Positions 5,411 to 7,670 of a DNA stretch of 35,740 nucleotides are shown here, in pieces; position 1 is the first letter of the stretch, and each line of letters begins with the position of its first letter. The stretch is taken from positions 749,576-785,315 of the forward strand of contig NZ_KB235941.1 of the NCBI RefSeq assembly GCF_000332315.1. Reading direction: 5' to 3'. The translations under genes were made by a program, and so were the position numbers. A model generated the notes under the pieces. The model had not been told where the DNA came from. It did no database searches and saw only the letters and a list, made by a program, of their open reading frames with translations. This stretch comes from Prochlorothrix hollandica PCC 9006 = CALU 1027. GTDB lineage: Bacteria > Cyanobacteriota > Cyanobacteriia > Prochlorotrichales > Prochlorotrichaceae.

Positions 5411-5551
5411 TTAGTCTTCGTGATCTTCAAAGGGGTCGGCTAGATCCTTGGCGGGGGGACCGAAGGCGATGTAAACGGAAAAGCCCGTGAGACCAATGAC
5501 GATCGCGGCGAGAGTGAGGCCAAGGGAGAGGGCGGGGGAGGATGATTCCAT
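5411..5551 (-). CDS. psbN: Photosystem II protein PsbN, 46 aa
   Basis: Reading from the ATG at 5551, the protein starts M-E-S-S-S-P-A-L-S and has one membrane helix (about residues 8-28). It then has the PsbN signature GFSVYIAFGPP, residues 39-46 D-P-F-E-D-H-E-D and the stop. PsbN is a thylakoid membrane protein needed for photosystem II assembly and repair rather than a stable subunit. It is encoded opposite to psbH, as in other cyanobacteria and plastids. It is followed after 47 bp by cruP on the same strand. The gene is too short to show up in a coarse ORF scan, but its identity is clear from the C-terminus. Confidence 0.92.
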   Translation of the reverse strand: MESSSPALSLGLTLAAIVIGLTGFSVYIAFGPPAKDLADPFEDHED

Positions 5552-5778
5552 GGTTTTAATAGGAGGGTGTTTAATACGGGGTCAGCATGGCTGAAGGGGC
5601 GATCGTTGCCCCTGGACCGAGGACCTTGATTTGTTACAGTTTATTACAAAACTATCGATTCAGGATAGGGGAATTTTGCAAGGGGGGGGAAGAACGGGGG
5701 AAAGACAGGGGATCCGATCGCCGCCAATCTCGCCATCCCAAGAAAATGGCGCGTGTCCCCCCAAGCTATGATATTAGC

Positions 5779-5827
5779 TTCATTCGCGAAAGCCCCGCAC
5801 TCTGCCGAAGGCGAGTGTCGGGATGAA
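5779..5827 (+). other. Structured hairpin 1 (IS200/IS605-end-like)
   Basis: Arms TTCAT/ATGAA enclose CCCG-CACTC, a bulged T, GCC, the loop GAA, GGC, GAGTG, a bulged T and CGGG. The design matches hairpin 2 at 6150-6186 in stem layout and bulge positions, but the distal stem bases differ. Similar GAAGCCC-GCAC...GTGTCGGG ends are, from memory, typical of the right ends of cyanobacterial IS200/IS605-group elements. Confidence 0.55.
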
Positions 5828-6149
5828 AGCGAGGTGGTTGCGAGTCCCCCTCAAAGTTATGCCTAGCCTTTGCGTGGCGACGGAGAGGGGAGACGAGCAG
5901 CCGCCAATCTGGTAAAATTGAACCAGCATGACAGGGTTAATTTTCCCCTGATCGGTACGCTTTCGACCGACAACTGGAGTTGACCGACCCGTAGGCCCAG
6001 GCTGCAAGTCCCCCGTTTCCAACGTTGCAATAGAGAGCATTTTCGAGACAAGCCTCCTCTTGGAGAAAATATCAATAGTGGGGCTGGCCGTCTTCCTCAC
6101 TATAAAAAGCTCGAATCGGCTAACCAGAGGTAAAACTCGCGCCGTGGGA

Positions 6150-6192
6150 GAAGCCCGCACCGTATGCTTGCATCGGTGTCGGGAGTACGTCA
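6150..6192 (+). other. Structured hairpin 2 (IS200/IS605-end-like)
   Basis: GAAGCCCG starts at 6150. The stem is CCCG-CACCG, bulged T, ATGC, loop TT, GCAT, CGGTG, bulged T, CGGG, followed by AGTACGTCAC. It has the same architecture as hairpin 1, but the paired bases are changed in both arms. It ends about 50 bp upstream of psbH. Confidence 0.55.
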
Positions 6193-6195
6193 CTA

Positions 6196-6225
6196 TTGCA
6201 ATAGCTTAAAACCCCTTCATACTAT
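6196..6225 (+). promoter_or_regulatory. Possible psbH promoter
   Basis: TTGCAA (6196-6201) and TACTAT (6220-6225) are separated by 18 bp and resemble sigma-70-type -35 and -10 boxes. The predicted start would lie only about 10 nt before the psbH ATG at 6242, leaving little leader, so this may not be the main promoter. Confidence 0.3.
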
Positions 6226-6241
6226 CTATCGCAGGTTAATC

Positions 6242-6436
6242 ATGGGACAAAAAACTGCTCTAAGTAATTTTCTCAAACCCTTTAACTCCAACGCAGGTAA
6301 AGTGGTACCGGGCTGGGGAACCACTCCCCTGATGGGCCTGTTCATGGGTCTTCTCTTTGTTTTTCTGCTGATCATTCTTCAGATCTACAACTCCACCATC
6401 GTCTTAGACGCTTTCTCTGTCAACGTCGGCGGATAA
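6242..6436 (+). CDS. psbH: Photosystem II reaction centre protein PsbH, 64 aa
   Basis: The protein starts M-G-Q-K-T-A-L-S, continues with [20 protein letters not shown] and has one membrane helix at about 28-48 ([14 protein letters not shown]). It ends [16 protein letters not shown]. This is the standard cyanobacterial PsbH length and sequence. PsbH binds near CP47 in photosystem II and stabilises the acceptor side and dimer. An in-frame extension to 6164 exists but runs into hairpin 2 and is not part of the family, so the ATG at 6242 is used. The gene diverges from psbN and precedes tatA, an order I believe is common in cyanobacteria. A terminator follows at 6463. Confidence 0.96.
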
Positions 6437-6887: not shown

Positions 6888-7670
6888 GTGAATGTTTTTG
6901 GCATTGGTTTACCCGAACTGGCGGTGATTTTAGTGTTGGCGCTGTTGGTGTTTGGGCCTAAGAAGCTGCCGGAAATTGGGCGCAATTTAGCCAAAGCCTT
7001 GGGCAGTTTTCAGAAAGCCTCCCAGGAATTTGAGGCGGAAATGAAGCGAGGGGCCGCAGAGTTGGAAAAATCGACGACGATCGCCCCCAATCCTGCCCCA
7101 ACTCCTCCGGTGGAACCCCAGTCCGGCCCGCTCCTGACGGCGGCGGAAACTCCTGCGATCGAGATTGCCGCGATCGAGACTCCCATTGTTGAAACCCCTG
7201 TCGCCGCCCCCCCACAGGTAGCCACCCCCGCTCCTGCTGCTGAGGTTCCGGTTGCTGAAGCCGTCACCGCCCCCCCAGAGGTAGCCGCCCCTGTTGCTGT
7301 GGCTGAGGCTCCGGTTGCTGAGTCTGCCCCCGTTGCTGAATCTCCGGTTGCTGAGACTCCGGTTGTCGAGACTCCGGTTGCTGAGTCTGCCCCCGTTGCT
7401 GAATCTCCGGTTGTCGAGGCTCCGGTTGCTGAGTCTCCGGTTGTCGAGACTCCGGTTGCTGAGTCTGCCCCCGTTGCTGAGTCTCCGGTTGCTGAGACTC
7501 CGGTTGTCGAGGCTCCGGTTGCTGAGTCTGCCCCCGTTGCTGAGACTCCGGTTGCTGAGTCTGCCCCTGGAGCCGAGTCCCCCACGATCGCAGCCGCCCC
7601 CGCCGAGGACTCCCCCGCCGACACCATCGCCCAGGCCACCCCTGACCCCACCTCTGACCCCACGACCTGA
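6888..7670 (+). CDS. tatA: Twin-arginine translocase subunit TatA/TatB-like with long repetitive tail, 260 aa
   Basis: The N-terminus (residues 1-60) is a normal TatA/Hcf106 unit: a membrane helix at 6-22 (LPELAVILVLALLVFGPKKL), the F-G-P-K-K hinge, then an amphipathic helix (PEIGRNLAKALGSFQKASQEF). TatA oligomers form the pore for folded twin-arginine precursors at the thylakoid and plasma membranes. Residues 62-260 are an Ala/Pro/Val/Glu-rich tail dominated by P-V-A-E-S/T and P-V-V-E units repeated some 25 times. Typical cyanobacterial TatA is far shorter. The GTG at 6888 is used because no in-frame ATG precedes the helix and a purine-rich site lies upstream. Confidence 0.9.
   Translation: MNVFGIGLPELAVILVLALLVFGPKKLPEIGRNLAKALGSFQKASQEFEAEMKRGAAELEKSTTIAPNPAPTPPVEPQSGPLLTAAETPAIEIAAIETPIVETPVAAPPQVATPAPAAEVPVAEAVTAPPEVAAPVAVAEAPVAESAPVAESPVAETPVVETPVAESAPVAESPVVEAPVAESPVVETPVAESAPVAESPVAETPVVEAPVAESAPVAETPVAESAPGAESPTIAAAPAEDSPADTIAQATPDPTSDPTT

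Follow-up and report, generated by a model that had tools for sequence, protein, structure and literature searches.

Palindrome-associated transposable elements (PATEs) are known from Haloquadratum walsbyi (PMC3119063) and Halanaerobium (PMC7290912), taken here from portions of the two reports. In IS608, according to excerpts of its description (PMC5934647), the cleavage sites TTAC (CL) and TCAA (CR) are read by guides at the hairpin foot, AAAG (GL) and GAAT (GR). For ISDra2, the relevant sections of the report (PMC8612924) describe a TnpB with an reRNA of about 150 nt that comes from the right end of the element, and the transposon target TTGAT serves as TAM.

We analyzed a 35,740-base stretch of Prochlorothrix hollandica DNA (the window), in which a 416-nt element lies between psbN (minus strand) and psbH (plus strand), in the same orientation as psbH (Table 1). 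Sixteen nucleotides separate the first hairpin from the left end and 10 the second from the right end; imperfect palindromes thus stand near both ends, and terminal inverted repeats are absent. The element is too short for a transposase and, by the list of open reading frames, holds no transposase gene, which bears out the original prediction of a minimal derivative without one. In the window, in the copy in genome G031, and in all eight copies extracted from genome G041, insertion took place 3' of TTAG without target duplication, and the right flanks vary. The limits first proposed, 5779 to 6192, fell one base short at each side, the true ends being 5778 and 6193. We conclude, with a probability of roughly 0.94, that this stretch is a gene-less, presumably trans-mobilized member of the IS200/IS605 family of the PATE kind, a reading that accounts only partly for the interior (5830 to 6070). 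Because the left flank contains AAGCTAT and the right flank ATAGCTT (within 5764 to 5777 and 6194 to 6208), insertion into the loop of a small hairpin is possible.

Table 1. Positions of the element, its parts and the flanking genes in the window
Feature	Position	Strand	Remarks
psbN, flanking gene	5411..5551	-	Open reading frame; adjoins psbH in 34/35 loci examined
TTAG target and left cleavage site, kept in the left flank	5774..5777	+	Same position in G031 and in 8/8 G041 copies
Gene-less IS200/IS605-type element (PATE-like)	5778..6193	+	416 nt; edges set from the G031 and G041 copies elsewhere
Left guide AAGC, fits TTAG	5790..5793	+	Guide rule of IS608, from excerpts of PMC5934647
Left-end (LE) imperfect hairpin, two bulged T	5794..5822	+	Like the left-end hairpin of tnpB elements L018 and L040
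Long stem directly 3' of the left end	5833..5905	+	Strong predicted fold
Remnant of tnpB 3' end plus right end; putative omega-RNA region of the parent	6078..6193	+	Frame VGLAVFLTIK...GEAR versus KVGLGVRLTIK...GEAR of L203
Internal TCAC directly before the 93-nt unit	6097..6100	+	
93-nt unit, also present alone, always after TTAG	6101..6193	+	Covarying RNA or single-stranded DNA structure
Right guide GAAG, fits TCAC	6150..6153	+	
Right-end (RE) imperfect hairpin, two bulged T	6154..6183	+	
TCAC right cleavage site, final 4 bases of the element	6190..6193	+	
psbH, flanking gene	6242..6436	+	Start codon 48 nt past the final base of the element

The two hairpins read CCCG-CACTC-T-GCC-GAA-GGC-GAGTG-T-CGGG (hairpin 1) and CCCG-CACCG-T-ATGC-TT-GCAT-CGGTG-T-CGGG (hairpin 2), both on the plus strand and with the bulged T at matching places. 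We searched for this architecture by exact pairing (4 bp, bulge, 5 bp, T, and a distal stem of 3 to 4 bp) and found it twice in the window, both times at the known hairpins, with no match on the opposite strand and none in 150 first-order Markov windows. The shared architecture and the matching bulges, the starting point of the original prediction, were thus confirmed. So was the statement that the distal arms differ and stay paired, both sides having changed at 5 of the 13 pairs of the right-end hairpin among 15 aligned right ends. A Y1 transposase requires similar hairpins in one orientation, and the selection for structure that had been suggested therefore concerns first of all the single-stranded DNA ends. 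Two intact-looking tnpB genes (L018 and L040; 412 and 399 amino acids; PF01385 plus PF07282) are flanked by an LE-like hairpin on the left and an RE-like hairpin on the right, 1.34 to 1.37 kb apart, and this order identifies hairpin 1 as LE and hairpin 2 as RE. The earlier analogy with the right end of IS200/IS605 elements therefore holds for the family link, but the hairpins are not two right ends.

The pairing between guides and cleavage sites fits the IS608 scheme. The fourth bases pair as C:G for AAGC/TTAG and as G:C for GAAG/TCAC; because the search pattern fixed the other bases, only this fourth guide base is informative. It was Watson-Crick paired in 42 of 43 distinct right ends (G:C, 32; T:A, 9; C:G, 1), the exception being that of G361, which ends in TCAT, and in 19 of 20 left ends. 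The left guide of the G031 copy is without one C.

Next, we looked for the element in 388 genomes of the same class and obtained matches in 69 of them. Near-full-length homologues were present at unrelated loci in G031 (89% identity), G041 (85%; scored at two places), and G379 (77%), and more partial or divergent copies were present in G160, G317, G361, G249, G216, G253, and G312. The eight extracted G041 copies were identical over 424 nt, each with TTAG before it and TCAC at its end and all with different flanks; one of them (L109) differed from the other seven in the base preceding the 424-nt identity. In G041, a motif scan recovered 22 hairpins of the window type for the right end and 17 for the left end, many at contig ends. 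Further high-copy LE and RE hairpins (GCGATGTACC... and GCGCTCTACCCGAT...) stand at many G041 contig ends, where parent elements may hide in collapsed repeats. Plasmid records yielded one ISSoc10 right end and one partial copy from Leptolyngbya, and phage records yielded no match to the element. The covariance-model search proposed with the original prediction matched the right-end model in 91 of 291 genomes, which excludes both that there are no further copies and that there is no conserved pairing.

The right-hand part of the element can be traced to a tnpB gene. A frame over 6078 to 6193 (VGLAVFLTIK...VGEAR) corresponds, by visual alignment, to the C-terminal end of the 426-amino-acid TnpB of L203 (KVGLGVRLTIKRESRKAGEARALSVG), and a covariance model of 6101 to 6193 built from 15 sequences (right-end model R1) matches the 3' ends of tnpB genes. 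A regular expression for the Zn-ribbon motif, applied directly upstream, showed tnpB there in 5 of 30 loci and in 14 of 40 loci; in the remaining loci, the motif was absent or the script failed to locate the right end. In the 15-sequence alignment, 92.8% of the cells pair, and both sides have changed in 11 of 23 pairs (5.6 in shuffles). There are 34 cells with both sides changed (12.4 in shuffles, with 0 of 500 shuffles as high), with fewer independent compensatory events than changed cells, because the changes, such as CGGC/GCCG to CCGG/CCGG and GAG/CTC to GTG/CAC, mostly mark two haplotypes. In sequence terms, the right-hand ~120 nt is the remnant of a tnpB 3' end with its right end, or omega-RNA region, and with the matches to tnpB 3' ends and the conserved fold, the link to the omega-RNA region drawn in the original prediction held up. 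The fold could act at the level of RNA (an omega-RNA scaffold) or of single-stranded DNA. A search for a tnpB parent sharing the 40-amino-acid tail matched 26 of 388 genomes at an E value of ≤0.1 and gave, among the frames listed, none of normal TnpB length (the longest, at a contig end, has 217 amino acids), indicating that the nearest tnpB parents share the architecture but not close sequence. In three right-end relatives (L045, L187, and L191), the upper stem is an unrelated hairpin in an unchanged position.

The long stem after the left end was considered as a conserved RNA and rejected: it folds well, but its covariation in six sequences was no better than that of shuffles (2 pairs versus 1.1; 149 of 500 shuffles). 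A 74-nt piece of the interior (5897 to 5970) has a second copy, 99% identical but with neither end, elsewhere in the genome of the window, G000 (G000:C9:1087660-1087733), upstream of another IS. A promoter and terminator scan of 5500 to 6300 found none. Farther along the window, an open reading frame at 6888 to 7670 begins with what we presume to be a TatA/B-like sequence and ends in a long repetitive VAESPVAETPVVE-type tail.

The 93-nt unit at the right end of the element also occurs alone. Solo copies identical or nearly identical to that of the window were present twice in G000 and four times in G031, and others ranged down to ~79% identity. TTAG stood at the left edge of all 18 solo sites read, in 11 genomes (L073, L076, L136, L075, L084, L137, L138, L029, L312, L031, L007, L032, L314, L008, L189, L190, L313, and L315), a count that excludes a degenerate copy after TTTAG (L316) and a copy in which a deletion has fused the left end to the unit (L317). 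A second solo type of 80 nt (TATAAAACGCGAATCTGGGG...) followed TTAG directly at 6 of 6 sites, namely, L200, L206, L273, L274, and L275 in G044 and G058 and L282 in G132; L206 and L275 are apparently one site in two genomes, and L319 rereads L200. Inside longer elements and tnpB genes, the left edge of the unit reads TCAC/TATAAA or TCAC/TCAAA (slash at the edge) in 21 distinct contexts, as counted by a regular expression that admitted only TTAG or xCAC. Examples of tnpB genes with this internal TCAC edge are L285, L278, L297, and L305, together with L291, which was read by eye. From this we infer that the left edge of the solo units was made by cleavage at an internal TCAC, twice independently. 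The 93-nt unit appears to move alone in many cyanobacteria, and one possibility is that a right-hairpin foot shifted by one base, to AAGC, lets it find TTAG without the left hairpin.

For the whole element, movement would proceed in trans. A TnpA (Y1) from another element would bind both hairpins on single-stranded DNA and cut after TTAG and after TCAC, and the cut ends would be joined into a circle and reinserted after another TTAG. Matches to the TnpA family (PF01797) are present in G000 (five), G031, and G041, none of them tied to the ends of the window element, and mobility alone may thus explain the conservation of the fold. The intact tnpA-plus-tnpB element of G000 has a TCAA-type right end, unlike the TCAC of the window. 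Among the 40 PF07282 matches in G000, 20 loci were read; most were the TTAC/TCAA element, and one was a truncated tnpB of the window type. The TTAC/TCAA-type element encodes a 463-amino-acid TnpB and is present in many near-identical copies (L049 to L067).

We then weighed whether the element is kept as a source of omega RNA. In that case, RNA from the right end would load a TnpB made elsewhere, which would cut the empty site so that the gene-less element is retained. A transcript, if made, could serve as a guide RNA. By analogy with ISDra2, it would take its guide from the psbH leader (6194 onward) and use TTAG for the TAM, which points to the empty site and not to the occupied one. The compensatory changes in 6101 to 6193, more numerous than in shuffles, are consistent with such a role, as are the alignment of this region with tnpB 3' ends and the ~150-nt reRNA that ISDra2 TnpB binds from the equivalent place, as described in part of the report (PMC8612924). 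However, the fold would also be conserved if TnpA reads it as single-stranded DNA, and G031 and G041 carry many copies of the element, yet no TnpB was detectable in them: PF07282 had no match in either genome, and PF01385 was absent from G031 (and from G055) and represented in the fragmented assembly of G041 by one broken 42-amino-acid piece. We consider this role unlikely, if worth keeping in mind.

That the element is a domesticated regulatory RNA or a leader structure of psbH is far less probable still. It does lie directly upstream of the psbH start in the same orientation, and in the same genome a solo 93-nt unit (L003, G000:C9:213579-213671) ends 244 nt upstream of a petB-like gene, which makes it a second unit ahead of a photosynthesis gene. 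Nevertheless, the comparison of psbN-psbH spacing put forward with the original prediction revealed no conservation of the element at the locus: a psbN match was found at 34 of the 35 psbH loci examined, and the gap measures 690 bp here (274 bp without the element) versus 58 to 433 bp in 33 other genomes of the same class. A scan with the right-end model of eight of those loci, chiefly ones with long gaps, gave no match, and other hosts carry the element at unrelated sites; the idea of an RNA domesticated between the two genes thus found no support. Membership in another family of structured RNA (riboswitch, intron, or HEARO/IscB omega RNA) is the least credible explanation, since, despite the strong fold predicted for 5830 to 6075 and the RRXRR (IscB-type) matches in G000, the window had no Rfam match at the gathering level (best E value in the region, 3.4), and HEARO/IscB was rejected as a parent after a motif look at two such loci, which are without these ends.

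As a PATE-like transposon, the 416-nt element is of an ordinary kind; what is unusual is its location between two photosystem genes. Less ordinary is the nested 93-nt unit, whose left edge falls precisely at an internal TCAC, whose solo copies all follow TTAG at the sites read, and whose structure covaries; together with the independent 80-nt version, these features suggest that IS200/IS605 elements can shed tiny mobile units consisting of the omega-RNA region only. If true, this would show the minimal sequence that a single-strand transposon requires. A bolder and rather doubtful proposal is that the 80- to 93-nt units are a free-standing transposon class made entirely of the 3' part of the omega-RNA scaffold. 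Their left end would have originated two or more times at a TCAC within the tnpB 3' end; they would be moved by TnpA and protected by TnpB in trans, the fold serving as both single-stranded DNA end and guide-RNA scaffold. They would then be hitchhikers on TnpA and TnpB and might rank as the smallest mobile genes for guide RNAs. We did not find solo omega-RNA units described in titles or the openings of abstracts of the literature on non-autonomous TnpB/omega-RNA elements, which is weak evidence, as it covers open-access publications only.

Compared with known systems, the element is like the PATEs, as portrayed in the parts of those reports used here, in its near-terminal palindromes, lack of terminal inverted repeats and target duplication, transposase-less length, and IS605-type kinship; it is unlike them in being cyanobacterial, in its TTAG and TCAC ends, and in holding a 93-nt subunit that is also found alone. 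With IS1341-type tnpB elements (ISSoc10 orfB; Chondrocystis sp. NIES-4102 plasmid AP018282.1), it shares an RE hairpin and TCAC that overlap the tnpB 3' end, but ISSoc10-type elements encode TnpB and the window element does not. As in IS608 of Helicobacter pylori, going by the excerpted account (PMC5934647), the four guide bases preceding the foot of each hairpin fit the respective cleavage site, although the pairs are TTAG/AAGC and TCAC/GAAG instead of TTAC/AAAG and TCAA/GAAT and there are no genes. Like the ISDra2 reRNA, to the extent covered by the sections cited above, the 6101 to 6193 region occupies the place of a tnpB element's right end, and its RNA would have a similar length (~150 nt with the guide), but the window element has no TnpB and the RNA is putative. 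Judged by sequence, then, this is a PATE-like, gene-less IS200/IS605 element, which is a known kind, and what seems new is the apparently mobile 93-nt unit nested within it.
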